Assembly: GCF_037392515.1 (NCBI RefSeq)
Contig: NC_090283.1
Span: 27,792,249 to 27,856,248, forward strand
Direction of reading: 5' to 3'
Length of the DNA: 64,000 bases
DNA from: Haliotis asinina
Lineage: Eukaryota; Mollusca; Gastropoda; Lepetellida; Haliotidae
Below, one piece after another: positions 1-24,182 of this stretch; positions within the stretch are counted from its first letter, which is position 1; the number at the start of each line of letters is the position of its first letter. Under the pieces are notes generated by a model. The model was not told the DNA's origin, ran no database searches, and saw nothing but the letters and a program-made list of their open reading frames with translations. The translations under genes and the position numbers were made by a program.

Positions 1-1446
1 TATTCGATAACACGTTTCAGGCAATTTGGTGAGATGAAACACACAAACGACCAACATATTTTCTCAAGCATTGCTTTTGGTTTGCCAGCCGTAACTGGGA
101 TTAAAATACGCCTATTCTGGCCCACCACACAGAAGCCCTTATTATTATTATTATGTTTCACAGATTAATGTGAAAATACAGCAGAGAGGGTTGGGGTGAT
201 CCTGGCACAGTCAGCCTGGTAAGGCTCATCAACAGCTCAGGGCCCTAGCCCCCTCTACATGCAACCCAGAATGAGAATGGGACTCCTTTCAGGAAACGCT
301 GCCTAGTCGAACCCACCAAGAACTTTCCCGATAATATAGGAATCCCCAACACCGCAGCCTTCTGAATAATCTGATTGTGAGGTTCTATTTGTGAGCACCG
401 TACTTGTGGTCACAGGTTTAAAGCAAAGGGCAGTTACACAATAACTAACGAGTGACGGGACATGACAGATTTTCTTTCTCGAGCTAAATTGAGTAATATA
501 ACGAGGGGAAGGTGGATGTGGGACTCTTTATATCCCCACGCGTGGTACGGCTTCTTTTCCAAGAATTACCGCTCTTAAAAGGGTGTACTACCCAAGGCTA
601 AATAGTCCCTTGGAAACATTTTTTCTCAACTAGTATAACTTCAGTGCATAGATTTTAAAATATCAAAAATACATATGTGTTTTCTGTACTTGATTGCTTG
701 AACTATGCATTAATTGGAAACAACCCCGTATTATATCAAATTTGCTTGTGAGTAGCTGGTTTGGAGTACAGACGTGACCGTCTCGGGCGCAGAGCTTTGG
801 TTTGGAGTGGAGACGTGAGAACTTGTTCAGTAGCTGGTCCAACAATATGTGCAACATTTCCCAATATGTTGCCGCCAACCTTCACTCGGTCATTCTCATC
901 TATTGAAGATGACATGTTCGTATACATCGACAAAAGAAGAGGGGTGGTTTGTGACGTCTCAACGTTGACGTTCGCTGTCTCGTTCCAATGATTTCAAGCA
1001 CACGTGTTGCATCATTTTTGCAACATTGTTTTGTTGTTGTTGCTGTTGTTGTCTTTTTGTTTTGTTTTTGTACAGCTGATATTTCTAAGAGTGTACGGTG
1101 ATGTACTGAGTTTACTGTGTAACAGGTTTCTTCCACGGGTGAACTTGAAAGTTTGAGTGTAAAACAATAAATGAAATGAAAAAGATGAATGAAGTCGTCC
1201 AGCATGCATATTCGTTTTAACCAATGAAACCGTTGATTGTTTGAAGCAGCCAATCAGGAATGACTTGCAGGAAAAATAAGACATCTAATACATTACTTTG
1301 AACTTCACTCACTCACTAAACTGAAACCACAGATTAAAACTGAAATATTTTGTTCAAAGTAGCGCTTGACTGTTCTGTCGTTCCCATTGTTACTCAAACA
1401 ATCTGGAAATGGAAACAGAAACGCATTCAACATCCTTTGCCTTCAG

Positions 1447-1935
1447 GTGCAGCTGTTTTTGACCCAGGTTCTGGGATCCGATGTCGGGATATCAGTGGCT
1501 GGATTCTTTGTCATACAGAAGTCTACTTTCCTCACGGTAAATATGAAAGAGGATTTGGGATGGAAAAGCGATTTTATTCAGTAATTTATTATTGATAACT
1601 ACTCGTTAGTAAACAAAACTGGCAAATTAATGATTAGAAAAACGGACTACATAAACATGACCACACAGTATCGTCTCTCACTTTCTAGGACGTCTACTTT
1701 TCTTTTGTATATTTCAGAAAATCAGACCGCATTAATAACAACTTTCGTCATTGACACATACCAATAAATCTGTAACGGAAATTGTCATGTTACTGATAAG
1801 GGTTGGTGAAAAGTCTGCATAAAGATGACACAATATCTTCACTCAGGTAAAAACGTTTGTGTTAATTTTCAGATCGTTGAGACGTTGATGACATATGCGG
1901 CTGTTGTTCTTCAACTCCCATCACCAGAGGCTTGA
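1447..1935 (+). CDS. GR-like receptor, last two exons only (5' part before the window)
   Basis: Exon 3 is 1447-1536 and exon 4 is 1873-1935, ending in TGA. Acceptors are CCTTCAG and TTTTCAG and the donor is GTAAAT; both introns are phase 0. Exon 3 codes for a segment ending in a GFF motif followed by VIQKSTFLT. Exon 4 codes for IVETLMTYAAVVLQLPSPEA, which carries the TYhhhhhQF-type signature of TM7 in gustatory receptors. The sequence is identical to exons 3-4 of the gene at 13728-19877. From the duplication offset, its exon 1 should begin about 4.2 kb before the window start. Positions 1-1446 would then be its intron 2. Confidence 0.85.
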
Positions 1936-2150
1936 CAGCTTGACATTGGGGTTGATTTTAATTTTACCTTCTTTAGTCGTTTAATGAGACACTGGAATTA
2001 CTACCACTTGCTGGTTAACGGTACTTGAATCTGACAGAATATACATTGACAGAATATACAACTTTGTCTAATCGTTTTCCTCTGCCGTCATTGATTCCAC
2101 AGCTACAACGTGTTACTCATAAAAGTCACAGTTTGAATGTACAGGTAACA

Positions 2151-2181
2151 CACGCACGCACGCACGCACGCACGCACGCAC
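2151..2181. repeat. (CGCA)n microsatellite
   Basis: Seven or so ACGC units in the 3' flank of the partial GR gene; the same tract is at 20093-20123 in the duplicated copy, with the same length. Confidence 0.9.
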
Positions 2182-2876
2182 ACTGACACTAGTCTCTACC
2201 TTCAATAAGTTCGGCGTATTTGGGTGAATTTCTCAATTTCTTCAAAAACGTGGCTTCAAATAATATGGCACTACTTCATAAAGTGGGCAAATAAATAGGC
2301 AAAACATTGTAAATCTGGACACTTTTTAAAGCTACTTCAGCTATTGATTACTATTGATTCAACTATTGACTCAAATTTACACTTTAATTGTGTATTTTAT
2401 CATATCAAGCTAAACATATCTTCGGCTTGCCATGTACACAAAATATGTAAACTAAACCGTTTTGCAAACCGTATTCTAATTAATGACGTATCATTTTCAA
2501 CATTCTCAACATTTTTACCACTGAATGGAGCCACATTTGATATAAGAGTAATTCAAACGCTACCGTTAGTGTACTTTATTTATTATCTTTGACACAAAGA
2601 ATTCACTTTTCACACATTTATAATTTCTTCCATATGTGAACACTTGTTTAATCAGTCGCCTCTTCGATTTCCACTACTGTAGACCTGTCTTCATATTATT
2701 TGAAAAAGTTTAATTGACAGACATTTCTATGACCGGCAATCTATGACCAGCACAAAAAGTTTCTTTGTTCCACAGTGTACATGTCCCAAATCTTGACTGC
2801 TTGTGAATTACCCCGTTTAATACTGTTCAGACAAATATGGTATGTTTGTTTGTCTTTTAACATACATGAGATCTCA

Positions 2877-3237
2877 CGCCAGTGGAATATTGACTCTTCT
2901 GGTGACGTGTACTTCTACAAAAGGTCAACTTACATCAGATGGAGGCTCGTAGCAACGACAAGATATCTGGCAATCTGCCACATCCCGAGTGCACCAGCAT
3001 GGTCCATTTTGAAATACGCAGTTGATTGTGGTTTAGGTACATAGATGTATGGAATAATGTGTTTGTATTCAATCATATGATAGACGTCAGGCCAGCGGAA
3101 TATTGACACCTCTGTTCGCCTTTACCACTACAAGAGATCAGGTTACATTAGGCGGATGCTGTACAAAGGAACTACTAGATATCTGACTGGATGCAACATC
3201 CGGGTAGGCTGAATACACCTGCATGACCCGTGTGGAC
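2877..3237 (+). repeat. Two copies of the ~150-bp GR 3'-flank module
   Basis: The module at 3090-3237 reads AATATTGAC...TACAAGAGATCAGG...GGAACTACTAGATATCTG...CATCCGGGTAGGCTGA. A more diverged copy is at 2877-3005. Copies occur downstream of the other GR-like genes at 27951, about 34040, 40106 and 40684. It is probably part of long 3' UTRs or of the ancestral duplication unit. Identical copies of this pair lie at 20819-21179. Confidence 0.75.
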
Positions 3238-3520
3238 TTTTTTTTCGGATTTTTAACGTTTATGGTTTCTGATCATGATAACCTTATGGTTTAGTATAAT
3301 TTGTTCATGACATTTACCGTCGCTTTACAAACATACACAGAGTTTGGTTTTAGAGTTCACTAAATGTATTTGTTTTAATGTATTTAGAAGTTGTTATTTG
3401 AGATATTTTAAGGGATCATTACAGATCCCGTCACGTTGTGTGGAAAAGGTGAAAGAATATTAGTTCATGAAATATCTTGTTTTTTTTGTTTCAGTGTTGA
3501 GGAAAAAAACAGTCTGACGC

Positions 3521-3720
3521 TAATAACTAGAGAATATTGTATAATTTATAATACATAATAACTAGAGAATATTGTATAATTTATAATACATAATAACTAG
3601 AGAATATTGCATAATTTATAATACATAATAACTAGAGAATATTGTATAATTTATAATACATAATAACTAGAGAATATTGTATAATTCATAATACATAATA
3701 ACTAGAGAATATTGTATAAT
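3521..3720. repeat. 35-bp tandem repeat, 5.7 copies
   Basis: The unit TAATAACTAGAGAATATTGT plus ATAATTTATAATACA is repeated at 3521, 3556, 3591, 3626, 3661 and 3696, with rare single-base changes. It is A/T-rich and just upstream of the candidate poly(A) signal at 3764. The same array with the same copy number is at 21463-21662. Confidence 0.95.
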
Positions 3721-3763
3721 GAATGTACATTTATGCTTTACATGCGTCTTTATCAATGTGTGA

Positions 3764-3769
3764 ATTAAA
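3764..3769 (+). terminator. Candidate poly(A) signal ATTAAA
   Basis: ATTAAAGTTTAAACTGTC follows a conserved TTATCAATNTGT stretch. The same motif is downstream of each paralog: 21706, 28295, 34351 and 41057. It would give 3' UTRs of about 0.9-1.8 kb. It rests only on conservation among duplicated flanks. Confidence 0.4.
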
Positions 3770-4636
3770 GTTTAAACTGTCTGTTTGATATCTGTCATAT
3801 ATTGTGAAAATGTCATTCTTTTTCAACGTCAGTATTTAGTCCTTCAGGTGAAAGATAAAATAGATAGAAAAGATAGATAGATAGAAAGATAAATAATGAA
3901 TCATAAATTCATCATTTTAAAGGGGCACATATATACTTTACACGGTAACAATGTAGGCTTCGATAGTTCCTATCAGAGCACAAGGAGGTTCTATTGAGCA
4001 AAAGGCAATTTCTGTCTTTGATATACAGGTTCAGTATATGGCATCTATTTGTGTTCGGAAATCATTTTACTCAAGTATTGCTAGTATTCCTCATTTACCA
4101 ACTTATCGTGTTATTATATATTGTCACTTACACATAGATTGCGTTATTGTTGATTGTGAGTTTATATATCACATTTTTCCTTGTTTATCAGTATATGGTA
4201 CAATAAACAGTGTACTTAGTTTTGAAACAGGTGCATATCGGCCATCGGGTAATACATCATAACTATCATAAATCCCTGTACAAGCTGATAATCACTTGTT
4301 CTTGTTTAACCCAGCTCGACGCTAAAATAGTCTATGTGTTGCAGGTAGTAAGGTTGATGGATAAATCTTTTCTGAAAAAACAATGGTGGGGAAATCATAT
4401 TATCATAATAGAGATATGGGACACTGGGTCCTTCAAGATCCCCTTAGTTTATATATTTAGGCATATATCTCGCTTGTCATCTGTTATCTGAATTGCATGA
4501 CCTAAAATCGTTTGACACACTCTTCCTAAATACTTCATCAAATCATTGGGCGTTTTTTTCAGTGTTTAATGTTCCCTATATGTCTGTTAATGTTCCTTGA
4601 GGGCGAGGGAAACATAGACACACATCAAGGTCACAT

Positions 4637-5342
4637 CAACCCATGGGCCCCGAGTGACCAGTGAACAATCACGTTATTCGAGGTAAAGAAGTACTGCCAC
4701 GAACTACAGAATGAGTTGCCACTGGCAGCGGGGTACTTTGCATTGTACCTCGCTTGAAAGATGGGTACACTGAAAGTAAAAGAAGAGTGTTTGGCCAATC
4801 AGAAAATGAATTTTATGTGTGAAGATAGTTTTCTATGTACCCCACTTACAAGTGAAGAACATTTCAATGTACCACGCTCGGAATGGCGGACGCATTTGGT
4901 ACTTCGTGGTAGTTCTTCTTTATTTCGAATAACATTGAATCATGTATGATGTAGGGAAATGCGAATGCAAATCAATGAGAGGGAGATCACGTTAAATCTG
5001 CTTTTCTTGTCGTGTCATGTGCATTCCAATGAAGAAATTTTGACAAAACGTTCAAATGCAGTCCCTGTGAATACTAAGAAGGGGAATTACATCGCGTCGA
5101 CTTTACTAAGACTGCGGGAAAAACAGCAAGATGCAAGATTCGAATCGTTTAATTCACACAGTTTGGCTGAAGTGTACAATCAGGTACCGATGCTTCAAAC
5201 AATTCAGAATTAACATTGAGGAGTTCGATAAGATAAAGTCGTTGTTCACTGGTACCACGGGGGCCATGGGTTGTACCTTCGATTTTGTTTATGTTCCCCG
5301 AGTCCGATTCATCAACCCATGACCCCCTCGTGACCAGTGAAC
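4637..5342. repeat. Three-part inverted/direct repeat, possible MITE
   Basis: A 30-bp motif (CAACCCATGGGCCCCGAGTG then ACCAGTGAAC) at 4637-4666 recurs inverted at 5244-5273 and direct again at 5313-5342. The last two form a hairpin with a loop of about 39 bases. The first and second could be the ends of a 637-bp element. No clear target duplication was seen. The whole is duplicated at 22579-23284. Confidence 0.45.
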
Positions 5343-6240
5343 ATCTTTTAAAGTGTTATTTATGTTGAACTATGGCAGGGTGTGTCCAGAAACGAGACGC
5401 CAGACTACTATAAGCAGACACAAGTGTAATCATCTAGTACCTCGTAAACCTCATGCCACATCAACTCATTTAAACTCAGCTCAACCATACGTGTAGAAAT
5501 GACCGACACTGGACGTCTGTTGCTTCTCCTGGCAAAGTCGTTCCCAGCCAATAGTTCATGTTTGTCTCCCGGTGCATTTACATGGCCATCCAATGAAACC
5601 ACAGCAGCATTTGCATGCCCTCAAACTAAAACACGGTATCATTTACCTCAAACCATAAATTAGCATCGTTTTATTGACAACAATCCACAACACGGTATAT
5701 ATGTGACAACAAACCATAAACAGTATCATTTACATAAACCCACACTACCCAGCAACATGACACATGAAATCAACACAAATATGCTAGATTTATATCTCAG
5801 ATCATTATTGGCTTCTGCTCTCACATTATCCCATGTGTTTTATTGTAAGTTTCCAATAGATAACTGAACCTAACAACATTGTATTTAGAGAGCAAACGTC
5901 TGTGTGGTCAGAACACAGCACAGCCGAAGACTAAATTTGAGTTGCACATTTTCAGAAACACATTGTACGGACCTCATGTCAATGGAAATGTTTACCTACG
6001 GTTTACCTTACCACAAATGATAGCATCAAGAAAGTCACGGCATCATCCTTTTATTGAATCAGTTGGTATTCCATTGTCTGGTGCTTATGATTGCCGTTTA
6101 CGAACTAGTCAGCATTTTTAGATCGATATCACACACACGCACTTTGTGTATCTAAGTACCATCAACCACATGAGTTACCAGTGTATTACATTAATAATAT
6201 AACACAGTAAAACCTCAGTAGCAGCTGGATCACGGGCTCA

Positions 6241-9200
6241 ATGTGGGCTGAAAAGAGATCGACTGTTAAAGGAGAGCAAATCACGGTGTCCGTTCAGAAG
6301 ATGAGAGGTGTTGGTTATATCTGTGATGTGCTGATTCTTTGTCTCAATATTGGTGGCATTTATACATACGGTAGCCACATTCGCAATGGGACGGCAGTCT
6401 GGCGTGGTTTGGCATTTGCATTCCTCGTCAACTGTGTCCTCACAACGTGTGTTGGATGGTTACACACAGTTCGGTTGTTTTACATAGCCATACTCGACGA
6501 CGTCTTCAAGTCTCGAGGTGCTTTGAAGCTGATGTTTGCAGTCTATGCTTTGTACTTATCAAGCATGCAGACATGCATGGTGTTTCTGTCAAAGCGCTTG
6601 ACCAAGCTAGGGAAGGAAATCAAGACTAGAGGAGATGGACTAAGTCGGAGATGGATCATCATATTCCATGTGTCTCTGTTGTTGACACTAGTTACGTCTA
6701 TCATTTTATTCACTATTTATGTATTCACAAATTCAAATGACGACGCTGACTCGAAGACGTCCATTGTGTTCCTTTATGTACTGCCATTTCATCTCAACTC
6801 GCCTCAAGGACACATCTGTCTTGGACTCTTCTACTATGTTTTCGGGTTCAATCTCTTCAGGATGGTGATTTGGCTTTTCCTTACGGGTGTTCTATGTTAT
6901 CACATCAGATACAAATTCATCGACATCAAATGCAAACTGGAAGACATTTCCTCCACAACCATTATCAGATATGATGTTATTGAAGAACTGCGACACACAT
7001 ATGAACAAGTGATTGACTACATGCGAGAAGTGGACACAGTTCTGTCATGGCGGGCTCTTCTCATGTTGGCAACTGTCCTGTTCACTGACTGCTTTTCTAT
7101 ATACTGCATTAAGGTTTGGTCCGCAGGAAAGGAGGAGTTCATTGTCTTCGTGGCTACTGTTTGCTTTACCAATGTTGTTCTTTTAGCACATATCATCTTG
7201 TCAGCTCAAGTTCACAGTGCAGTAAGTAACGTACAGTGTTTTTAACGCATGAATTCAAATATGTCGCTTATATATTTGTAACGAAACACAACCAGTTTCA
7301 TTATCTGTTTGGATTATAAGTGTGAGTAATGTCTGCACAGTAGCAGTACTGGAAATCAGGAAGTAAGGACTGTCTTTATACACCAAACAACGGGAACATT
7401 TTCTTTCGATGTTCAATATAATGTGTGTCTTTCATTTCATGGATACTTTCAGGGAAAAGCAGTAGGTGATGTCCTGCCAAAAATACACCTGAGTGACAAC
7501 AGTGTGGATACAGGAATATCGGTACGATGAAGGTCGAGAAGATGTCCATTTTAGGGTTTGGCAGAGTAGTCAAGTTGGTGATGGCGTGCGCTTGTCACCG
7601 TAAGGGACAGGTCTTTATATGAGAGCTTGAAAAGCCAATTCAGCTATACATGTCGTTTACTTACATTTTACTCTTTTCTAAACACAACTACACCAGCTCG
7701 AATTTGATTTCAATGCTGTGAATTGATTATGTTGTAAACTGCTGTAATTAATTCCCTTTCATTTCATAACATACACAAAAAATCCAGTCGGGTTTTGAAG
7801 TATGGGGAACAGGTCAAGCACATCACTTTCAGTTACCTATGGAATCCGAGAAGGGACATTGTCGCGTTGTCGCATTGTCGCGTTGTCGCCCTCTCAAAAA
7901 CAAGCAAAATGAAGCAAAAACTAACCAAAGCGCGACAATGCGACAATGCGACAATGCGACAACGCGACATTTCGCCTGTTTGTCGCATTGTCGCGATGTC
8001 GCGTGTCGCGTTTCGAATAACATTTTCTCTGTTCCTCCAAAGTGCGACACGCGACATAGCGACACTTTTCAAGGTCAAAATATGTCGCGTTGTCGCATTG
8101 TCGCCCTATCTACGATGTGTAAAAAAACCCTAAACATTTACTAAAACGCGTTGTCGCCCTTTTCGATTACCGATGCGCATGCGTAGAAAGTCAATTATAG
8201 TACGCATGCGCAGGAAAGGTTAAACTCTGTTTAACACTTCAATGGTCCTTTTGATACTTCGAATGGTTTTTAAAGTGAAGTAGTGCTTGAAATGGTAGTT
8301 GGGCTGCTTTTCTTGAACTTAATGCAAATATTCATTGTTGGTTAGAAAATTATTTTATATATAAATGTATTTAGTGAATGAAGTGTGTTTTAGCAGCAAG
8401 ACAAATACTTGCGCAACTTTTCATTGTAATCAGGGCACACGTTTGCCTCGTCATTCAAGGCGGGGCAATTTGCTGTGCAGATTAATGTCTCTTTGTCACA
8501 CCAGATAGCTATTATCATAAGTTCGAATCCCAGCACCATACACATTAATCACTTTGAACATTTCGCCGGTATCCAGATGACAGGTTGTGAGAAACTGAAA
8601 TATTGTTAAAATTCAAGCCACATCGGCAGAAACATCAGGTCATGTCATGTCCTCGAATGGGTCACTATGTTCCATAATGTGGCTCCTGACACAGTTTCAT
8701 GGTACAGTCCTGTCCGACGCTGATGAACTTGTTCGAGATCTGCCTCTGTTCAGCCAGCAGTGGATGGATACCAAGTAGAATGAGATATCACGTAACCACC
8801 AGACACGTCAAAGACAGTTTAGGTCGGCTTTGAACGTGATAATGGGAAAACGCCATACAAATGGACTGTTATCATTGTGATATACTACCCCAAGAAATAA
8901 ACGCATAGACGAGAAATCTGTTGAAAAAAGTTTCAAACATGTATAACTCGTCCATAAATAGACTTTAGTGCATGAATTTTACATCAGTAATGAGTGCATG
9001 TGCTTTAGAAGAAGGTAATGTCTATAAAACAAATAATATACTTCTAGACAGCGAAGACGTTGATGACGACGTAGCACGACCCTGACGTCGGGTTTTCTGC
9101 TTCTCAAACGAATCTCTTTCAGCCTGTTCCGTACAGTTTGACCTGACATCCTCTGAAGGCCAGGTGCCCTGGCTGTTGTGCTCTCACCCGTGGGAGTACC

Positions 9201-12200
9201 ATCACGCAACTGTAGTACCCGCATGTACCTATTTGAGTTGCAGTGGTAACTCTAGATCTGCCTGCAAAGGGGCAGTGACTTCTTATATCTGTTTGGCTGC
9301 AACGAGCTGCAAGTCATTATATCTTGCTCAGACTAACATTCAGACGCCTGGCAACAGAAGAGTTGTAAAAATACAAATCGCCTATGCGTTTCTTTTGGAG
9401 GGATGGTTTATTAGAAACGATGAAATAGCTTGGTAGTGTTGCGTACCCTTGAAGTGCCAGAAACCAAGTCTCCCTCCTTCCCTCCTCCTACTCTGCGACG
9501 CTCCACTCCATTCCACACCACACCTCTCCTCTCCCCTCCTCCTCCTTCACTCCTCCGGCGCTCCGTTCTACTCCGCTCCACCCTAGCCCACTCCTCTCCG
9601 CTTCGCTCCACACCACTCCTCACTCCTCCACCGCTGCACTCTCTCAAGGTTTGGCAAGATTCGCAAATTAGCAAGGTATTTCAATACAATAATGTGTTGT
9701 CATGTCTGTTTTCAGTTCTATTTGAATCCTGTCTTATTAACCCTGCATGTGAGATAATTCACAATATAGTGGATACTTGATCAAGCGATACTTATGTACT
9801 TGTATCGTTTGAAACATGCACCTACTGAATCATAATATTCTTCAGCAAAATGGACAGTTTGAATACGGCATTCCATTAACCACGCACCCTTAACCCACAC
9901 ACTAACACGGCAACATGGATGTTCATTTATCATTGTTCTGAGTTCGAATCACGGGTATCTCAGCTCTTCACGAAATGTCGCATTGTCGCATTGTCGCGTG
10001 TCGCGTTTTAGTTAATATCTTATAATTCACACTGTAGTCAATATTTTAACAAAACGCGACGCGCGACAATGCGACAATGAGACATTTCATCAAAATGTCG
10101 CGTTGTCGCATTGTCGCGTGTCGCGTTTTAGTTAATATCTTATAATACATACTGTAGTCAATATTTTAACAAAGCGCGACGCGCGGTAATGCGTGAATAC
10201 GACATTTCATCAAAATTTTATTAGTTACGGCGGAATGTTAAAAAAATATGACAAGCATGATTATTTTTCGATATTTTTAAAGGGTTCAGATATCCAGGGA
10301 TCGACATCAGAACAATGATAAATGAACGTACATCTAGTCGTGAAGTCCAGAGTGGTTGAGTGTCGTTGCTTAACGGAATGGTTCTGTTCAGACTGACCCT
10401 TTTGCTGAATTTGTTTTTGATATAACAGCCGTAGGTTTACAACGATACAAGTACATGTATATCGCTGGATCTAGTAACCGTATGAAAAAATTATGAGGCA
10501 TATTGTGAATCAGGCTATGTGCAGGATTAATAATATAGGATTCAAACAGAAATGAAAACGGGCATCACAATACATCATTGTAATGAAATACCGTGCTATT
10601 TATACCAATAAACCTTGGGTGAGTGGAGTGGAGCGGCGAGAAGAGTGAGAGGAGTGAGGGAGGGAAAGCTGGTTTCTTGCACTACAAGTGTACGCAACTC
10701 TACCAAGTGATGTCATTGTTTCTAATATCCTACTGTCAACAGTCCATTTGTAAGGCGTTTTCCCATTATCACGTTCAAAGTCGACCAAAACTGTCATTGA
10801 GGTGACGGATGGTTCAGTGATATCTCATTCTACTTGGTATCCATCCACTGCTGGCTGAACAGAGGCAGATCTCAGACAAATTCATCAGCGTCGGACAGGA
10901 CTGTACCACGAAACTGTCAGGAGCCACATTATGGAATATAGTGAGCCATCACCTGATGAATTTGCCGATGTGGCTTGAATTTTAAAAATATTTTAGTTTT
11001 TCACAACCTATAATCACAACCTGTCATTGAAATCTCCAAAGTGATTAATGTGTATGGTGCTGGTATTCGAACGTATGGTAATAACTATCTGGTGTGACTA
11101 AGAGACTAACTCTGCTCAGTGTGCCGTAATTACAATGAATAGTTGCGCTACTAATTCGTTTTGCTGCTAGAACACACTTGACTGGCTAAATACATTTTCA
11201 ATATGTAAAACAATAAAGAAGGATTTGCATTAAGTTCAAGAAGAGAAGGCCCATTGCCATTTCGAGCACTATTTCAATTTAAAAACCATTGGAGGTAACG
11301 AAAGACCAGTGAAGTCTGGAATAGAGTATAACATTTTCTGCGCATGCGTAGATTAAATGACTTTCTACACATGCGCACCGGTAACAAAAAGGGCGACAAC
11401 GCGACAATGCGACATACATTTTGTCGCATTGTCGTGTGTCGCGTTTCAGTTAATTTGTTAAATGCATACTATGGTCAATATTTTAATAAAGCGCGACACG
11501 CGACAGTGCGACATCGCGACATTTTGATGAAATGTCGCGTTGTCGCATTGTCGCGTGTCGCGTTTTAGTGAATTCTTACATATCTTAGATAGGGCGACAA
11601 TGCGACAACGCGACATATTTTGACCTTGAAAAGTGTCGCTATGTCGCGTGTCGCACTTTGGAGGAACAGAGAAAATGTTATTCGAAACGCGACACGCGAC
11701 ATCGCGACAATGCGACAAACAGGCGAAATGTCGCGTTGTCGCATTGTCGCATTGTCGCGCTTTGGTTAATTTTTGCTTCATTTTGCTTGTTTTTGAGAGG
11801 GCGACAACGCGACAATGCGACAACGCGACAATGTCCCTTCTCGGATTCCATAGTTACCTGAGTTTCAGATGACCCTTCAGACTGAAACATTGACCAAAAC
11901 AACGTTTAACTCTACTAAATCTGTTTTCACACAATTTAAACATGGAACAGTTCAGCTATTCGACATAAGTGGCCTATCTTCTGTATTCAGGTGCAGCTGT
12001 TTTTGACCCAGGTTCTGGGATCCGATGTCGGGATATCAGTGGCTGGATTCTTTGTCATACAGAAGTCTACTTTCCTCACGGTAAGTAAAGATGTGGGTTT
12101 TTCATGAAACATGTTAATGTTTGATAAAATGTCTTTATTCATGGTTAACGATCTAAACTGCCAAATCACTGGAATGGAAAACTGACCCTATAAAAAATGA

Positions 12201-13467: not shown

Positions 13468-13727
13468 GTTAGCACGGACCAAGATTTACTTTGAAATAGA
13501 TCTAATGCCAATGTTTACAAATCATTAATGATCAATAATGAACAAATTACGAGAGTCATATTAACTCATTTAATCGTGATATCTGTTTGGCTGCTTTTAC
13601 CTTCAAGTGATGGAATCAAATGCTAAGCACGCACTTTGCATTTGAATCGAATCAGATCCCGAGTTAGCAGTACATTGCCTTCCTCACTTGGAACAACCGA
13701 AATCAGTGTTGGTGAATCACAGGAACG

Positions 13728-15058
13728 ATGTGGGCTGCAAAGAGATCGACTGAAACAGAAGACCAAGATACGGTGTCTGTTCAGAAGATGAGAGGAGTGG
13801 GCTACATCTATGATGTGTTGATTCTATGTCAAAATATGTGTGGCATGTATACGTATGGTAGCCGCATTTGCAATGGGTCAGCAGGTTGGCGTGTTTTGGC
13901 ATTTGTATTCCTCGTCAACTGTGTTTTCACAACGTGTATTGGATGGCTACACACAGTTCGGTTGTTTTACATAGCAGTACTTGACGACATATTCAAGTCT
14001 CAGGGGGCATTAAAACTGACACTTGCAGTCTACAATTTGTACTTATCAAGCATGCAGACATGCATGGTGTGTCTTTCAAAGCGTTTGACCAAGCTAGGGA
14101 AAGAAATCAGGAATAAAGGAGATGGACTAAGTCCGAGATGGATCGTCATATTCCATGTGTCTCTGATACTGACAATACTGACATCTATCATTACGTCCAG
14201 TATTTTTGCATTTATAATTTCAAATGACGATGCTGGATCGAACACGTCCCTTGCATACCTTTACACTCAGCCATTCGATCACAACTCACTTGAAGGACGC
14301 ATTTGTCTTGGACACTTTTTCTATAGTGGCGCTTTTGCTCTCTTCAGGGAGGTGATATGGCTTCTCCTTACTGGTGTTCTCTGTTACCACATCAGGTACA
14401 AATTCATCGACATCAAATGCAAACTGGAAGACATTTCCTCCACATCTGTCATCAGATGTGATGTTATTGAAGAACTGCGACACACATATGAACAGGCGAT
14501 TGACTACATGCGAGAAGTGGACACCGTTCTGTCATGGCGGGCTCTGCTCATGCTGGCAACTGTCCTGTTCACTGACTGCTTTTCCATTTATGACATAAAG
14601 ATTTGGTCTGCAGGGAAAGAGGAATTCATTTTCTTCATTATGTTTCTTTGCTTTTCCAATGCCTTTCTACTGGCAGTCATCGTCCTATCAGCGCAAGTCC
14701 ATAGTGCAGTAAGTATATTTATGAATTATTTAGCACACAACAAGCAATGTATTATCATGATATCCTTTCAGTTTCACTTGTCCGATTATTGTTACAAATA
14801 TTCAGCTGTAGACCCAAATATAATAAGTAGGAATCTTTATGTCCAAATGTCTGGTTGGTAGGATGTGATATCATCAATGAATTATATTACACAAGCTTTC
14901 TATACCTTCAGGCAAAATCAGTCGGTCATGCCCTGCCGAAAATACAGCCGAGTAACAACGATGTGGAGACTGGAATATCGGTACGGTAATGTTCCATCAG
15001 AGTAACATATTTTAAACTTATCCCATCTCACGTACTCACGTATTGTATTGTACATTCA

Positions 15059-15115
<57 letters not shown>

Positions 15116-18100
15116 CATAAGAAAGTTGGGTCCCACCAACGAACCCGAATTGCACATTTAACCACTGTTTTCTACCAGATATCTACTTTTTTATTTATTT
15201 TATTTTTTATATTTTCTTTCTTTTTTCTTTCTCTCTTTCTGTCTTTCTTTATTTATTTTGTTTATTTACTTATCTATTATTTTTTTTTCGGGGGGGGGGG
15301 GGGGGGGTATTTTTTGCTTATTTTCAAGACACAGCTTGTTTTCACAGACAATTCTATCAAAATCACTTATTGCTATAATGGATATAAATCGTCATGTTAC
15401 AAGCAGTGTCATGCAAAATACATATTTGACTACGAGTAGGAAGCAGTTTTGAACTTTTAACTTGATGGGGAAAAAAACATAGTCCAATTGATTCTCAAAC
15501 TGACCGTGACGCCACGATTTTAGAAAATGGCGGCGGCCTGTCACGAACATACGTTAGTCCCAGAATAAATGCTATTTAGGATTGTTTACACCGAGTTACA
15601 AAATCTGTATTACTTTCTACTGATAGTAAATGTGTATTTGATTGATAAACAATAGGATTTTGCATGACATTGCTTATAACATAACAATTTCACTCTTGAA
15701 AGCGAGGTGGGTGTCAATATTATACACTGACAATATTAGTGTCACTTCGACCAAAACCTCGATCGCAGCAAGTTGTGTCATGCAAAATCCTTTTGGTTCT
15801 CAATTATTTACTAGTAAGTAGTTTTGATTTTTGTTAACTCGATGGAAACAAGTCTAAATATACTCTTTTTTTTAAAAAAAGTAGGGGAACCTGACCTTTG
15901 AAGTCTCTTAGAAAGTAACCCATTGAAGAATGTTACAATGACATTCATCTTGGGTATGCAGTAGCATTTTACGTTATCACCAAAAACAAACACACTGCAT
16001 GGGAAGCACGTGCACAACGTGGGAGCCTCCTACATGTGCACGGGGTGTCATCATGAATCTTGACGTTTTTTCAGGCAGGTCGATAGATCACTGTAGACCA
16101 TTTTTCCGATAATTTAATTGCATCTGTGCATGGTCAGGGTCACAACACACTACCGACTGAAAATTGTAAATCTGAAATTTTCATGTCCTACTCCAGTCAC
16201 CTAACAAGGGGGATACCTGAACGAACAACATTGCTTTGAATAATAGCCATGTGGTGATGCATTCTCAGAACATCCATTCTTATTGTATGAACAATGATTA
16301 AATCCAGTGTCTCTCCCAATTTCGACAATCGTACATTGTAAGTACAGTTCCCCTACTTTTTGTCAAGAGTATAGCATCTTCTATCTTGGAAGCGAGGTAG
16401 GTGTCCAACCACCTGATTATATACGTACAGGATTCCACAAAGCTTGCTTTGCACTCACATATTTAGCACGAACTGAGGTGTCCCGTGGAAATCTGTGCAT
16501 GGTGACACCATCACCCGACGCCTGGGAGCACTTACTGGCAACCTAACGATTCGGCATGTCTTTGTTGACGTCGAGAAATAAGCAATTTGACGAGCTTGTT
16601 ACACATTTTATATACAACCTCCTGAAAATCACATGACGTCACCGCAGGGCTCTAGCGACAGAGTTACGTAACCTGTCTGCGTTTTCGTTTGAACGCGAGA
16701 GGGACGGGGGAGACTTTTGGCAACTTTTAATCGCTTGGTATTAATCAACCACGCGTTTTTTTTCTTAAGAAAACAATTGGTGTTCCACAAGTCTTTCATA
16801 GGTAATGGATAAAATGAGTAAAAAGATTTCTCCCAAACTGATCCGCATATATGAACAACTGATAGAGAAACGAGGGTGATGGGCTCCGTTATCAGATATG
16901 ATCCTTCTGGACAAGACTCTGGATATCTTTTTTATCAACTCAACTACATTGTGCTTATAGGAATAGGAAAGGACTGGCACAGCAAAGAATTGGTGGCTTT
17001 GACCTTGCTTTTAGCATTGAGCTGCAGATTGTGTTAAAGCGGGATTTGTACTCTGCCCGAAGTCTGTCTTGAAATCTGGGCATTCTGGAGCTTGTCTCGA
17101 ACTTGATTTTCAAGACAGGCCTGATCTTCCACAGCATACTCAATATATTCCGATTACTGCCCCAATATAACTTGACCAAACCATCATGACGTACCTGACA
17201 TGTTTCAAATGTCGAGTCCAAAAGTCATACCAATATCATTAGAAAAGGACTTGACAAGGAAAGCCTGTTCTGTCAAACTGGCATTTGCTTTGTCAAGGAG
17301 TTCGATGTCATCCATGCAAATTAAATGAGTAAGTGGTGTTGGTGATCTGTGCTGAGGAGGTCCAGGATGGCAACCCTCCTCCCAACTGAGCAGAACGCTC
17401 AAAGGATTTAAAGGCAAGCAAGAAAGCAAAGGACTAACGGACCCCCCTGGAACATTCTCCTTCTGATTGGAATAGATTCCGAAGTCTTCACCTGCTCACC
17501 TAGTTACTCAGGCAGGTCAATACAATCAAGTGACATCAGATCAACTGATCAGGGATAGAGTCATATGTTTTTTGTAGTCAATCCAGCACACGATGAGGTT
17601 GCGGTGGTGTGTTTTAATCTCTTTCAAAATCATTTTACGTACGAGAAGTTGATCCTTGCACTCCTGGCATGCCTTTCAGGCTCCCTCTGCTATCTACTAA
17701 CTGGAACAGCAGTAAGACGACACGATTGTGTACTATTCATGTGATAGGTCAGAAGTCTTTTCAGATTAGTTAAGCCTCCTTTTTGGTGACGGAGTATTAT
17801 GCAGGCTGTGCAAAACCATGGGGGGACTTTGCCTGTATCCTGTAAATAGAAGCAGTGAAGTAATGGTGTTTGGACACACGGGAACACTTTCAGGTAAAGG
17901 TTTCGAATGCCACCAGGCTCTGCAGCTGTATCAGATTTCCACTATTCGATAACACGTTTCAGGCAATTTGGTGAGATGAAACACACAAACGACCAACATA
18001 TTTTCTCAAGCATTGCTTTTGGTTTGCCAGCCGTAACTGGGATTAAAATACGCCTATTCTGGCCCACCACACAGAAGCCCTTATTATTATTATTATGTTT

Positions 18101-19877
18101 CACAGATTAATGTGAAAATACAGCAGAGAGGGTTGGGGTGATCCTGGCACAGTCAGCCTGGTAAGGCTCATCAACAGCTCAGGGCCCTAGCCCCCTCTAC
18201 ATGCAACCCAGAATGAGAATGGGACTCCTTTCAGGAAACGCTGCCTAGTCGAACCCACCAAGAACTTTCCCGATAATATAGGAATCCCCAACACCGCAGC
18301 CTTCTGAATAATCTGATTGTGAGGTTCTATTTGTGAGCACCGTACTTGTGGTCACAGGTTTAAAGCAAAGGGCAGTTACACAATAACTAACGAGTGACGG
18401 GACATGACAGATTTTCTTTCTCGAGCTAAATTGAGTAATATAACGAGGGGAAGGTGGATGTGGGACTCTTTATATCCCCACGCGTGGTACGGCTTCTTTT
18501 CCAAGAATTACCGCTCTTAAAAGGGTGTACTACCCAAGGCTAAATAGTCCCTTGGAAACATTTTTTCTCAACTAGTATAACTTCAGTGCATAGATTTTAA
18601 AATATCAAAAATACATATGTGTTTTCTGTACTTGATTGCTTGAACTATGCATTAATTGGAAACAACCCCGTATTATATCAAATTTGCTTGTGAGTAGCTG
18701 GTTTGGAGTACAGACGTGACCGTCTCGGGCGCAGAGCTTTGGTTTGGAGTGGAGACGTGAGAACTTGTTCAGTAGCTGGTCCAACAATATGTGCAACATT
18801 TCCCAATATGTTGCCGCCAACCTTCACTCGGTCATTCTCATCTATTGAAGATGACATGTTCGTATACATCGACAAAAGAAGAGGGGTGGTTTGTGACGTC
18901 TCAACGTTGACGTTCGCTGTCTCGTTCCAATGATTTCAAGCACACGTGTTGCATCATTTTTGCAACATTGTTTTGTTGTTGTTGCTGTTGTTGTCTTTTT
19001 GTTTTGTTTTTGTACAGCTGATATTTCTAAGAGTGTACGGTGATGTACTGAGTTTACTGTGTAACAGGTTTCTTCCACGGGTGAACTTGAAAGTTTGAGT
19101 GTAAAACAATAAATGAAATGAAAAAGATGAATGAAGTCGTCCAGCATGCATATTCGTTTTAACCAATGAAACCGTTGATTGTTTGAAGCAGCCAATCAGG
19201 AATGACTTGCAGGAAAAATAAGACATCTAATACATTACTTTGAACTTCACTCACTCACTAAACTGAAACCACAGATTAAAACTGAAATATTTTGTTCAAA
19301 GTAGCGCTTGACTGTTCTGTCGTTCCCATTGTTACTCAAACAATCTGGAAATGGAAACAGAAACGCATTCAACATCCTTTGCCTTCAGGTGCAGCTGTTT
19401 TTGACCCAGGTTCTGGGATCCGATGTCGGGATATCAGTGGCTGGATTCTTTGTCATACAGAAGTCTACTTTCCTCACGGTAAATATGAAAGAGGATTTGG
19501 GATGGAAAAGCGATTTTATTCAGTAATTTATTATTGATAACTACTCGTTAGTAAACAAAACTGGCAAATTAATGATTAGAAAAACGGACTACATAAACAT
19601 GACCACACAGTATCGTCTCTCACTTTCTAGGACGTCTACTTTTCTTTTGTATATTTCAGAAAATCAGACCGCATTAATAACAACTTTCGTCATTGACACA
19701 TACCAATAAATCTGTAACGGAAATTGTCATGTTACTGATAAGGGTTGGTGAAAAGTCTGCATAAAGATGACACAATATCTTCACTCAGGTAAAAACGTTT
19801 GTGTTAATTTTCAGATCGTTGAGACGTTGATGACATATGCGGCTGTTGTTCTTCAACTCCCATCACCAGAGGCTTGA
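13728..19877 (+). CDS. Gustatory-receptor-like 7TM protein, 400 aa, four exons
   Basis: Exons: 13728-14708, 14912-14980, 19389-19478 and 19815-19877 (TGA), all joined in phase 0 with GT-AG borders. The protein starts MWAAKRSTETED and ends MTYAAVVLQLPSPEA. The short second exon (AKSVGHALPKIQ...) is the most diverged of the array, with HA for DV and QPSNND for RLSDNS. Exons 3-4 are inside the duplicated block, so they are identical to the partial gene at 1447. Exon 1 is outside the part of the duplication that can be seen. Intron 2 is 4.4 kb long and holds a CT repeat, a poly-G run, a MITE and a LINE relic, so splicing across it is an inference from gene order. Family role as for the gene at 6241: membrane chemoreceptor channel, ligand unknown. 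Confidence 0.83.
15065..15113. repeat. (CT)n microsatellite
   Basis: About 24 CT units in intron 2 of the gene at 13728. It is followed by T/C-rich sequence up to about 15290 and by a run of G at 15291-15307. Confidence 0.95.
15863..16369. mobile_element. MITE with TA target duplication (Tc1/mariner type), 507 bp
   Basis: The left end contains AAAAAGTAGGGGAACCTGAC and the right end CAGTTCCCCTACTTTTTGTC; these are inverted copies with CTCTT/AAGAG outermost. TA flanks both ends (15861-15862 and 16370-16371). No transposase reading frame is inside. It lies in intron 2 of the GR-like gene at 13728. Confidence 0.6.
16960..17890 (-). mobile_element. Non-LTR retrotransposon (LINE) reverse-transcriptase relic
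   Basis: Reading the - strand at 17205-17429 gives HLICMDDIELLDKANAS and then FSNDIGMTFGLDI. This is the catalytic xxDD box and downstream region of a LINE reverse transcriptase, with C in place of the usual Y or F. Upstream on that strand, near 17570, a WIDYKK stretch fits the DYKKAYDSIP motif, in a broken frame. Downstream (16955-17221) a fragment with CQVRHD and KLYW resembles the C-terminal part of R2/R4-like elements. Several frameshifts break it, so it is dead. The clade is a guess from memory of similar sequences. Confidence 0.6.
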
Positions 19878-20818
19878 CAGCTTGACATTGGGGTTGATTT
19901 TAATTTTACCTTCTTTAGTCGTTTAATGAGACACTGGAATTACTACCACTTGCTGGTTAACGGTACTTGAATCTGACAGAATATACATTGACAGAATATA
20001 CAACTTTGTCTAATCGTTTTCCTCTGCCGTCATTGATTCCACAGCTACAACGTGTTACTCATAAAAGTCACAGTTTGAATGTACAGGTAACACACGCACG
20101 CACGCACGCACGCACGCACGCACACTGACACTAGTCTCTACCTTCAATAAGTTCGGCGTATTTGGGTGAATTTCTCAATTTCTTCAAAAACGTGGCTTCA
20201 AATAATATGGCACTACTTCATAAAGTGGGCAAATAAATAGGCAAAACATTGTAAATCTGGACACTTTTTAAAGCTACTTCAGCTATTGATTACTATTGAT
20301 TCAACTATTGACTCAAATTTACACTTTAATTGTGTATTTTATCATATCAAGCTAAACATATCTTCGGCTTGCCATGTACACAAAATATGTAAACTAAACC
20401 GTTTTGCAAACCGTATTCTAATTAATGACGTATCATTTTCAACATTCTCAACATTTTTACCACTGAATGGAGCCACATTTGATATAAGAGTAATTCAAAC
20501 GCTACCGTTAGTGTACTTTATTTATTATCTTTGACACAAAGAATTCACTTTTCACACATTTATAATTTCTTCCATATGTGAACACTTGTTTAATCAGTCG
20601 CCTCTTCGATTTCCACTACTGTAGACCTGTCTTCATATTATTTGAAAAAGTTTAATTGACAGACATTTCTATGACCGGCAATCTATGACCAGCACAAAAA
20701 GTTTCTTTGTTCCACAGTGTACATGTCCCAAATCTTGACTGCTTGTGAATTACCCCGTTTAATACTGTTCAGACAAATATGGTATGTTTGTTTGTCTTTT
20801 AACATACATGAGATCTCA

Positions 20819-21179
20819 CGCCAGTGGAATATTGACTCTTCTGGTGACGTGTACTTCTACAAAAGGTCAACTTACATCAGATGGAGGCTCGTAGCAACGA
20901 CAAGATATCTGGCAATCTGCCACATCCCGAGTGCACCAGCATGGTCCATTTTGAAATACGCAGTTGATTGGGGTTTAGGTACATAGATGTATGGAATAAT
21001 GTGTTTGTATTCAATCATATGATAGACGTCAGGCCAGCGGAATATTGACACCTCTGTTCGCCTTTACCACTACAAGAGATCAGGTTACATTAGGCGGATG
21101 CTGTACAAAGGAACTACTAGATATCTGACTGGATGCAACATCCGGGTAGGCTGAATACACCTGCATGACCCGTGTGGAC
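20819..21179 (+). repeat. GR 3'-flank module pair, duplicated copy
   Basis: Same pair of modules as at 2877-3237, carried by the large duplication and lying downstream of the gene at 13728-19877. It differs from the first pair by one base (20971). Confidence 0.75.
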
Positions 21180-21462
21180 TTTTTTTTCGGATTTTTAACG
21201 TTTATGGTTTCTGATCATGATAACCTTATGGTTTAGTATAATTTGTTCATGACATTTACCGTCGCTTTACAAACATACACAGAGTTTGGTTTTAGAGTTC
21301 ACTAAATGTATTTGTTTTAATGTATTTAGAAGTTGTTATTTGAGATATTTTAAGGGATCATTACAGATCCCGTCACGTTGTGTGGAAAAGGTGAAAGAAT
21401 ATTAGTTCATGAAATATCTTGTTTTTTTTGTTTCAGTGTTGAGGAAAAAAACAGTCTGACGC

Positions 21463-21662
21463 TAATAACTAGAGAATATTGTATAATTTATAATACATAA
21501 TAACTAGAGAATATTGTATAATTTATAATACATAATAACTAGAGAATATTGCATAATTTATAATACATAATAACTAGAGAATATTGTATAATTTATAATA
21601 CATAATAACTAGAGAATATTGTATAATTCATAATACATAATAACTAGAGAATATTGTATAAT
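21463..21662. repeat. 35-bp tandem repeat, duplicated copy
   Basis: Same copy number and same variants as the array at 3521-3720. A fast-changing array that has not changed points to a very recent duplication (or an assembly repeat). Confidence 0.95.
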
Positions 21663-24182
21663 GAATGTACATTTATGCTTTACATGCGTCTTTATCAATG
21701 TGTGAATTAAAGTTTAAACTGTCTGTTTGATATCTGTCATATATTGTGAAAATGTCATTCTTTTTCAACGTCAGTATTTAGTCCTTCAGGTGAAAGATAA
21801 AATAGATAGAAAAGATAGATAGATAGAAAGATAAATAATGAATCATAAATTCATCATTTTAAAGGGGCACATATATACTTTACACGGTAACAATGTAGGC
21901 TTCGATAGTTCCTATCAGAGCACAAGGAGGTTCTATTGAGCAAAAGGCAATTTCTGTCTTTGATATACAGGTTCAGTATATGGCATCTATTTGTGTTCGG
22001 AAATCATTTTACTCAAGTATTGCTAGTATTCCTCATTTACCAACTTATCGTGTTATTATATATTGTCACTTACACATAGATTGCGTTATTGTTGATTGTG
22101 AGTTTATATATCACATTTTTCCTTGTTTATCAGTATATGGTACAATAAACAGTGTACTTAGTTTTGAAACAGGTGCATATCGGCCATCGGGTAATACATC
22201 ATAACTATCATAAATCCCTGTACAAGCTGATAATCACTTGTTCTTGTTTAACCCAGCTCGACGCTAAAATAGTCTATGTGTTGCAGGTAGTAAGGTTGAT
22301 GGATAAATCTTTTCTGAAAAAACAATGGTGGGGAAATCATATTATCATAATAGAGATATGGGACACTGGGTCCTTCAAGATCCCCTTAGTTTATATATTT
22401 AGGCATATATCTCGCTTGTCATCTGTTATCTGAATTGCATGACCTAAAATCGTTTGACACACTCTTCCTAAATACTTCATCAAATCATTGGGCGTTTTTT
22501 TCAGTGTTTAATGTTCCCTATATGTCTGTTAATGTTCCTTGAGGGCGAGGGAAACATAGACACACATCAAGGTCACATCAACCCATGGGCCCCGAGTGAC
22601 CAGTGAACAATCACGTTATTCGAGGTAAAGAAGTACTGCCACGAACTACAGAATGAGTTGCCACTGGCAGCGGGGTACTTTGCATTGTACCTCGCTTGAA
22701 AGATGGGTACACTGAAAGTAAAAGAAGAGTGTTTGGCCAATCAGAAAATGAATTTTATGTGTGAAGATAGTTTTCTATGTACCCCACTTACAAGTGAAGA
22801 ACATTTCAATGTACCACGCTCGGAATGGCGGACGCATTTGGTACTTCGTGGTAGTTCTTCTTTATTTCGAATAACATTGAATCATGTATGATGTAGGGAA
22901 ATGCGAATGCAAATCAATGAGAGGGAGATCACGTTAAATCTGCTTTTCTTGTCGTGTCATGTGCATTCCAATGAAGAAATTTTGACAAAACGTTCAAATG
23001 CAGTCCCTGTGAATACTAAGAAGGGGAATTACATCGCGTCGACTTTACTAAGACTGCGGGAAAAACAGCAAGATGCAAGATTCGAATCGTTTAATTCACA
23101 CAGTTTGGCTGAAGTGTACAATCAGGTACCGATGCTTCAAACAATTCAGAATTAACATTGAGGAGTTCGATAAGATAAAGTCGTTGTTCACTGGTACCAC
23201 GGGGGCCATGGGTTGTACCTTCGATTTTGTTTATGTTCCCCGAGTCCGATTCATCAACCCATGACCCCCTCGTGACCAGTGAACATCTTTTAAAGTGTTA
23301 TTTATGTTGAACTATGGCAGGGTGTGTCCAGAAACGAGACGCCAGACTACTATAAGCAGACACAAGTGTAATCATCTAGTACCTCGTAAACCTCATGCCA
23401 CATCAACTCATTTAAACTCAGCTCAACCATACGTGTAGAAATGACCGACACTGGACGTCTGTTGCTTCTCCTGGCAAAGTCGTTCCCAGCCAATAGTTCA
23501 TGTTTGTCTCCCGGTGCATTTACATGGCCATCCAATGAAACCACAGCAGCATTTGCATGCCCTCAAACTAAAACACGGTATCATTTACCTCAAACCATAA
23601 ATTAGCATCGTTTTATTGACAACAATCCACAACACGGTATATATGTGACAACAAACCATAAACAGTATCATTTACATAAACCCACACTACCCAGCAACAT
23701 GACACATGAAATCAACACAAATATGCTAGATTTATATCTCAGATCATTATTGGCTTCTGCTCTCACATTATCCCATGTGTTTTATTGTAAGCTTCCAATA
23801 GATAACTGAACCTAACAACATTGTATTTAGAGAGCAAACGTCTGTGTGGTCAGAACACAGCACAGCCGAAGACTAAATTTGAGTTGCACATTTTCAGAAA
23901 CACATTGTACGGACCTCATGTCAATGGAAATGTTTACCTACGGTTTACCTTACCACAAATGATAGCATCAAGAAAGTCACGGCATCATCCTTTTATTGAA
24001 TCAGTTGGTATTCCATTGTCTGGTGCTTATGATTGCCGTTTACGAACTAGTCAGCATTTTTAGATCGATATCACACACACGCACTTTGTGTATCTAAGTA
24101 CCATCAACCACATGAGTTACCAGTGTATTACATTAATAATATAACACAGTAAAACCTCAGTAGCAGCTGGATCACGGGCTCA

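Follow-up and report, generated by a model that had tools for sequence, protein, structure and literature searches.

A repeated non-autonomous foldback transposon family with IS3EU-type ends in Haliotis asinina

The 4-kb palindrome in the window (the whole stretch of 64,000 nt analyzed, from contig NC_090283.1 of Haliotis asinina) is a member of a repeated family of non-autonomous DNA transposons. The mobility of the family was shown by numerous copies that share these ends and are flanked by 6-bp target-site duplications. A sequence-only reading had proposed a foldback-like, non-autonomous element, and the same-ended copies, the target duplications, and the lack of a recognizable transposase of its own bore this out. 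We consider it likely that this is a non-autonomous foldback family with IS3EU-type ends, moved by a DDE transposase made elsewhere, with clustered sites aiding recognition. Foldback architecture has so far been described for MULE and P-type elements; here it is combined with IS3EU-type ends.

Structure of the element

The features of the element are listed in Table 1. The previously proposed limits (7839..11851) were 1 bp short on each side, the terminal T and A being counted to the element, and the proposed inverted 20-mer was present at both ends (2 matches with ≤3 mismatches, 0 expected). Of the "almost complete palindrome," the inverted arms were upheld but the near-completeness was not. 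The outer arms were 98.9% identical over approximately 280 bp (7839-8120; 271 matches, 3 mismatches, and one 8-bp gap). Four aligned inner-arm blocks had diverged (83.7, 89.6, 80.4, and 76.3% identity, with gaps), and hexamer modules and an insert were each found in one arm only. Long inverted arms of short subrepeats, the trait of the foldback class, were present.

Table 1 Features of the element in the window
Feature	Position	Strand	Description or basis
Whole element	7838..11852	.	4,015 bp, TATGGAATCC...GGATTCCATA; limits from comparison with 25 other paired copies
Left target-site duplication	7832..7837	+	GTTACC; junction alignment of paired copies
Right target-site duplication	11853..11858	+	GTTACC; junction alignment of paired copies
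Left terminal inverted repeat	7838..7858	+	TATGGAATCCGAGAAGGGACA; inverted 20-mer match
Right terminal inverted repeat	11832..11852	-	Inverted 20-mer match
Left outer arm	7859..8134	.	Alternating TGTCGC/GCGACA clusters (x4, x5, x4, x3, x3), 8/7-bp spacing
Right outer arm	11564..11831	.	Inverted copy of left outer arm
Extra hexamer modules, right arm only	11391..11563	.	No left-arm counterpart
Inner arm A, with nested insert	8147..9968	.	Blocks 76-90% identical to arm B; common to other copies
Inner arm B	10217..11390	.	Alignment to arm A; common to other copies
Two tandem 120-bp modules	9973..10216	.	(TGTCGC)n - AT-rich spacer - (GCGACA)n; 91% matches
Nested decayed Tc1/mariner remnant	8883..9410	-	Approximately 530 bp, TA-flanked, degenerate TIRs; limits approximate

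The arrays of TTGTCGCR octamers were as described: 29 of the window's 30 octamers lay inside the element (3.03 expected window-wide), as did 61 of its 77 TGTCGC/GCGACA hexamers. The central tandem units of the same motif, also claimed earlier, were found as two modules, and the predicted fold of 124 bases from 9973 reached -64.5 kcal/mol. Across 25 copies, same-strand neighboring hexamers were spaced by 8 bp 658 times and by 7 bp 188 times, and orientation alternated between neighboring clusters in 308 of 319 cases. Most of 50 terminal sequences, all chosen by the adjoining 20-mer, retained the first hexamer. A CpG-decay signal in the hexamers was rejected (27 of 84 single variants, approximately the share expected from two of six positions).

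The Tc1/mariner remnant lay in the left arm, and the right arm had no counterpart. Its ORF (8979-9224, minus strand) matched HTH_Tnp_Tc3_2 (Pfam E = 2.6e-4, 21.6 bits; curated cut-off 31.5). Pfam gave only this Tc3-type HTH fragment within the element, the rest being at chance level, in agreement with the earlier claim that the element has no transposase. Of the 27 fetched loci searched for it, 8 (including the duplicate of the window's own copy) had the remnant with both of its junctions.

Copies of the family and their target-site duplications

The terminal 20-mer occurred in 259 exact copies in the 1.14-Gb genome (139 forward, 120 reverse; reversed control, 0), disposing of the possibility, raised by the sequence-only reading, that no other copies with the same ends exist. 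Pairs were drawn from the first 100 of the 259 end places, reaching part of C4: 52 ends formed 26 convergent pairs and 48 were without an exact partner. Paired copies ranged from 59 bp to 9 kb, and five larger ones had an additional middle region; the minimal copies (L060, 59 bp; L058, 160 bp) carried few hexamer sites. An element of 130 bp (L110) had the same TIR and no arrays, and its flanking hexamers did not match; a genome search with it returned itself and one 71% relative.

Of the 26 pairs, 21 had an exact 6-bp duplication (19 of 24 once duplicated sites were collapsed), two more matched at 5 of 6 positions, and three lacked the duplication (L059, L061, and L063). When both readings were compared in the duplication table, which has 27 rows for the 26 pairs since L072 has two left ends, 6 bp was exact in 21 rows and 8 bp in 6. 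The exact 8-bp duplication claimed earlier was therefore wrong, which weakens filing the family under superfamilies with 8-9-bp duplications. The termini were TATGG..CCATA; 24 of the 26 left ends had the T and all 26 right ends had the A, the inner ATGG being preset by the search word.

The locus lies inside a tandem duplication with a period of 17,942 bp (most of the stretches compared were 99.86-100% identical, and 3,374 bp across its upstream border were 98.6% identical), as might be expected if the palindrome were a local inverted duplication or an assembly artifact. That explanation was refuted by the same ends at many other sites, each with its own 6-bp duplication, and we give it practically no weight. 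A search for an empty site gave none, as the element is present in the upstream tandem duplicate too, and in the window's paralogous introns only exon-like parts aligned.

The ends did not follow the two inner-arm types. Median outer-end identity was independent of arm type (A-A, 0.941; B-B, 0.962; A-B, 0.946; six copies <900 bp and L074 left out). The inner-arm comparison covered 19 copies >1,200 bp, with arm type uncertain for L051, L054, L056, L064, L070, and L073. Where both arms of a copy were clear (L050, L052, L055, L059, L063, L065, L066, and L072), identity to the window was 0.95-0.97 for the same type of inner arm and 0.88-0.91 for the other type.

Superfamily and source of the transposase

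Because an IS3EU transposase was not found, we infer the superfamily of the moving enzyme, for which IS3EU/GingerRoot is most likely. IS3EU families are described as having TA..TA termini "always" and 6-bp duplications usually, and GingerRoot as having a 6-bp duplication and mostly TA..TA (PMC10045372); for fungal TET-carrying IS3EU families, 6-bp duplications, ends TAYGG..CCRTA, and TIRs >30 bp are given (PMC12730594). The window family had the 6-bp duplication, TA..TA termini whose TATGG..CCATA fits TAYGG..CCRTA, and, with regard to the TIR length of the fungal families, outer arms of approximately 280 bp. It differed in its kb-long composite arms, its alternating hexamer clusters, and the absence of a transposase in the copies read. 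Foldback arms are not part of the IS3EU descriptions compared here (PMC10045372, PMC12730594). Searches of the window element and of three middle regions (L065, L066, and L072) yielded neither an rve-type DDE transposase without HHCC, an IS3EU trait, nor a MULE domain; the element is non-autonomous.

Most described foldback elements belong to the Mutator superfamily. Mutator (MULE) foldbacks such as Tetris and Tm1 are described with the same anatomy, including long composite TIRs with internal tandem subrepeats and non-autonomous copies (PMC4079207, PMC3169594), and the 4-10 bp given jointly for IS256/MuDR duplications includes 6 bp (PMC10045372), which makes a MULE slightly likelier and the IS3EU-type explanation slightly less so. 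The duplications reported for Tetris and Tm1 are 8-10 bp (PMC4079207, PMC3169594), whereas here 6 bp predominated. Together with the fit of the ends to IS3EU and the lack of a MULE domain where searched, this makes a MULE foldback unlikely.

P-type target duplications are approximately 7-8 bp, against 6 bp here. Galileo, a member of the P superfamily, has a 7-bp duplication and longer tandem repeats than the window family. Sea urchin TU elements resemble the window family in that short tandem repeats make up their outer TIR domain but differ in their 15-bp repeats and 8-bp duplication. In favor of a P-superfamily foldback, the TIRs of Galileo of Drosophila are long and internally repetitive and contain numerous short sites, for which binding by the THAP domain is reported as demonstrated (PMC3688188). 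The sole THAP match in our data (L070) lay alongside DDE_Tnp_4 and YqaJ, inside its own 64-bp inverted repeat, and because of these features the region looks like a nested ISL2EU-type element. We regard a Galileo-like origin as very improbable. The hAT superfamily was ruled out by its duplication of approximately 8 bp, as given in PMC3706591, against 6 bp here. Dada was ruled out as well, since TIRs are present and the target hexamers are varied; its U6/U1 families are described as lacking TIRs, with snRNA or tRNA gene targets and 6-7-bp duplications (PMC3706591).

The sequence-only reading had envisaged a larger relative with the same ends and its own transposase; the paired copies that were read (from the first 100 of 259 ends) included none. 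In the fetched pairs (L050-L074), the longest frame between stops was 221 aa, and six-frame Pfam searches of the L065, L066, and L072 middle regions gave nothing significant (best ORF line Cas9_Topo, E = 0.0062, below its cut-off). Two free-standing rve-like ORFs examined elsewhere in the genome (L109 and L111) had no family TIRs in the surrounding sequence read (3.7 and 5.0 kb). The L109 protein had 125 matches in the genome, and of the 59 places on C1-C4 that were compared with the listed ends, one came closer than 10 kb; this match, at C1:67935549 in a 1,519-aa frame, lay 8.4 kb to the outer side of the end at C1:67927118. A search of the genome with the IS481 model scored 63 of 6,983 candidates, of which 30 were fetched. 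These matches were taken mostly for LTR retrotransposons because 5 of the 30 loci showed an RT motif (one strand scanned) and many matches lay in 800-1,500-aa frames. No TAYGG..CCRTA pair with a duplication was found in 3.4-3.7-kb stretches of the 30 loci.

Function of the arrays

Mobilization is likely to occur in trans, with the arrays as putative clustered transposase sites. A DDE transposase encoded elsewhere would recognize both ends and excise the element, which would then be joined to a 6-bp staggered cut; the TGTCGC clusters beside each TIR would probably lend affinity and specificity to a DNA-binding domain with a short site. By analogy with Galileo, in whose long TIRs multiple sites for the THAP domain of the transposase are described (PMC3688188), the arrays can reasonably be regarded as probable transposase-binding sites. 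The array-poor L058 and L060 and the array-free L110 argue against a strict need for long arrays.

In a competing explanation, which concerns the arrays and not the superfamily, the arrays are not binding sites; slippage and hairpin-mediated duplication would have produced them, and homogenization alone would maintain them. It agrees with the differences in module number between arms and copies, with the few sites in the minimal copies, and with similar octamer arrays in unrelated bacteria, which suggest a repeat-prone word; against it are the spacing and alternating orientation that hold across 25 copies and the retention of the first hexamer. We consider it possible but rather doubtful. The bacterial arrays came from a search of prokaryote genomes that matched 40 loci: 37 of 41 compared loci aligned at 1e-5, the best over ≤44 nt and in octamer arrays only. 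One match in viral contigs shared only 18 bp, and two further searches of viral contigs found no relative. Viral and prokaryote relatives of the element were rejected. The octamer strings had no match in a text search of the literature.

For the more specific proposal of an rve/IS3EU foldback family of independent origin, we put the chances at about even. In this proposal, a transposase encoded elsewhere would use the regular alternating clusters, of at most five sites each, as a multivalent landing platform, and homogenization of the ends would proceed family-wide independently of the arms. If it is true, foldback ends have at least three separate origins (MULE, P, and integrase-type transposons), pointing to a shared pressure, either to multiply weak transposase sites or to homogenize ends, and not to common descent. 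The 26 paired copies, 21 of them with exact duplications and spanning 59 bp to 9 kb, allow the number of array sites to be related to transposition success.

Inverted intronic copies may be sources of hairpin RNA and of inversions. A tRNA scan of the element returned 0 tRNAs. miRNA content was rejected, all 41 matches being below gathering scores; we read these matches as driven by hairpins.

Copy number and target-site duplication

The terminal repeat TATGGAATCCGAGAAGGGACA was found at both ends of the window element, in inverted orientation, and the 20-mer ATGGAATCCGAGAAGGGACA had no third match in the window when up to 3 mismatches were allowed. A search of the same genome (159 contigs, 1.143 Gb in total) returned exact matches to this 20-mer at 259 places, 139 of them forward and 120 reverse, and 0 matches to its reversed control. 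Among 100 listed of these 259 ends, 52 paired up convergently to enclose elements of 59 bp to 9,026 bp, and the other 48 were without an exact partner. The family contains at least 26 pairs, namely the window copy and 25 copies elsewhere (L050-L074).

With one terminal T and one terminal A assigned to the element, the 6 bp adjoining it on either side were identical in 21 of the 26 pairs. The flanking hexamers agreed at 5 of 6 positions in L060 and L071, and did not match in L059, L061, and L063. Because L074 duplicates the window copy and L051 and L052 share one insertion site (99 and 96 of 100 flanking positions identical), exact 6-bp duplications were counted at 19 of 24 independent sites. 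The 8-bp duplication proposed in the sequence-only reading was exact in only 6 of 27 junction rows (L072 has two left ends) and is not upheld. At the shared site, L051 is 2,246 bp long and L052 is 4,075 bp long; the element was resized by approximately 1.8 kb after duplication of the segment. The L061 copy (246 bp) lacks a target duplication, and its flanks themselves form an inverted repeat of approximately 66 bp, a configuration that reads as a palindromic rearrangement around the element.

Arms, ends, and arrays

The element had been described as an almost complete palindrome without a transposase. Its arms are inverted and the outer arms are nearly identical (271 matches, 3 mismatches, and a single 8-bp gap, equal to one octamer), but the palindrome is composite: the inner arms showed 83.7, 89.6, 80.4, and 76.3% identity in four aligned blocks. 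The left arm (arm A; the right is arm B) carries an insert of approximately 530 bp with degenerate TIRs adjoining TA and a Tc3-type HTH fragment (Pfam E = 2.6e-4, below the curated cut-off). Beyond this fragment, a six-frame domain search of the element returned only chance-level lines and no other transposase domain. The insert was found across both junctions in 8 of 27 fetched loci searched, seven of them besides the window's own duplicate; because both junctions are common to these loci, it probably pre-dates the spread of the copies carrying it. Both arms also contain inverted pairs of TGCGCATGCGTA-like sites, which we take to resemble NRF1 sites and which are possibly an old promoter.

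The element held 29 of the 30 TTGTCGCR octamers and 61 of the 77 TGTCGC hexamers in the window. Most hexamers occurred in clusters of 2-5, spaced by 8 or 7 bp, with successive clusters flipping orientation. From the start of the last hexamer to the start of the first in the next cluster, the distance was 13-25 bp where the orientation turned from minus to plus and 38-64 bp where it turned from plus to minus. Across 25 copies, same-strand neighbors were 8 bp apart in 658 cases and 7 bp apart in 188, and orientation alternated in 308 of 319 neighboring cluster pairs. Tandem TTGTCGCR arrays were also found at 40 bacterial loci (L002-L041; Bacteroidales MAGs, several contigs being from one MAG, and scattered others), with approximately 0.03 expected by an estimate from base counts alone.

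Eight copies had two clear arms (L050, L052, L055, L059, L063, L065, L066, and L072). Their inner arms showed an identity of 0.95-0.97 to the window arm of the same type and 0.88-0.91 to the other type; the contrast was weaker or unclear in the remaining copies. The outer ends were not separated by arm type: median identities over 19 copies, six with uncertain arm assignments, were 0.941 (A-A), 0.962 (B-B), 0.946 (A-B between copies), and 0.956 (A-B in the same copy). In all 19 copies, the best-matching end elsewhere was at least as similar as the copy's own opposite end. Thus, end homogenization is family-wide and not solely within an element, which speaks against simple intra-element fold-back repair.

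Five copies (L055, L059, L065, L066, and L072) were 7.3-9.0 kb long and consisted, in one direction or the other, of arm B followed by a middle region, the module array, and arm A; the middle region is absent from the window copy. No significant Pfam match was found in six frames of the L065, L066, and L072 middle regions, and those of L055 and L059 were approximately 98% identical to that of L066. A match of an L066 ORF to Cas9_Topo (E = 0.0062, under the cut-off) was taken as chance. The longest stop-to-stop frame in L050-L074 was 221 aa, a measure that intron-split genes could escape. Within arm A of L070, a region with THAP, HTH_Tnp_4, DDE_Tnp_4, and YqaJ matches, enclosed by its own 64-bp inverted repeat, looks like a nested ISL2EU-type element.

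Superfamily and proposed mechanism

The element is most likely of IS3EU type, an assignment based on ends and duplication length only. In the excerpts consulted, the termini of IS3EU families are always TA..TA and their duplications usually 6 bp long, GingerRoot being similar (PMC10045372), and in fungi the IS3EU families that carry TET combine TAYGG..CCRTA ends with duplications of 6 bp (PMC12730594). Dada, also in excerpt, comes near with 6-7-bp duplications but differs in targeting small-RNA genes and in its TIR-less U6 and U1 families (PMC3706591). The Mutator-type foldbacks Tetris and Tm1 are described, in the portions available, with 8-10-bp duplications, in contrast to 6 bp here; for IS256/MuDR jointly, 4-10 bp is printed in the excerpt (PMC10045372). 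A full-text search of the open-licence literature, as far as its texts were accessible, returned no description of an IS3EU foldback, and the octamer strings had no match there. A single paper in it names both, foldback solely among its references and IS3EU in a table. Two free-standing rve-like ORFs, L109 (Pfam rve, 4.4e-12) and its relative L111 (from a protein search with L109), had no matching TIRs within the 3.7 and 5.0 kb read, respectively, and no partner transposase tied to these ends was found.

Beyond the ends, duplications, copy number, and arrays observed in the family, we propose that an IS3EU-type transposase would act on the element in trans, and that clustered hexamers may help it to bind the ends more tightly or more selectively. 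The latter is by analogy with Galileo, in which, in the excerpt consulted, THAP-domain sites are located in TIR subrepeats (PMC3688188). Two short copies (L060, 59 bp; L058, 160 bp) and L110, a 130-bp element with the same TIR, no TGTCGC arrays, and nonmatching flanking hexamers, speak against a strict need for arrays but do not decide the matter, because they may have shrunk in place. L110 has one 71% relative (C10:32980070).

Genomic context

Coordinates of features in the window and in other copies.
Feature	Sequence	Position
Foldback-like element	window	7838-11852
Inverted TGCGCATGCGTA-like pairs	window	8172-8214, 11340-11382
Exon-like segments	window	7431-7534, 11966-12100
Tandem segmental duplication	window	1-7227, 17943-25169
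Long open frames, tandem family (recurrent exon-like segments downstream)	window	6226-7228, 13713-14715, 24168-25173, 31247-31809, 37145-38150
Tc1-like transposase frame	window	55290-56309
Copy with inverted-repeat flanks	L061	1-446
Region with THAP and DDE_Tnp_4 matches	L070	2162-6201
Array-free element	L110	54-183

The element is probably intronic, because it sits between two exon-like segments that both recur near the tandem gene copies of the window. The units of the segmental duplication are 99.86% identical and gap-free, with a period of 17,942 bp. The duplication continues in the upstream genome (L074 and L077), where the same insertion recurs one period (17,942 bp) upstream of the window element and shows 0 differences from it in the 4,013 bp compared. 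The duplication is either a recent amplification or an assembly effect; provided that it is not the latter, the insertion would be older than the duplication, since it is present in the upstream duplicate. No Pfam match was found in the three members of the tandem long-frame family tested, and the family looks like putative multi-pass membrane proteins. Elsewhere in the window, a full-length open Tc1-like transposase frame matched HTH_Tnp_Tc3_2 and DDE_3 above the cut-off.
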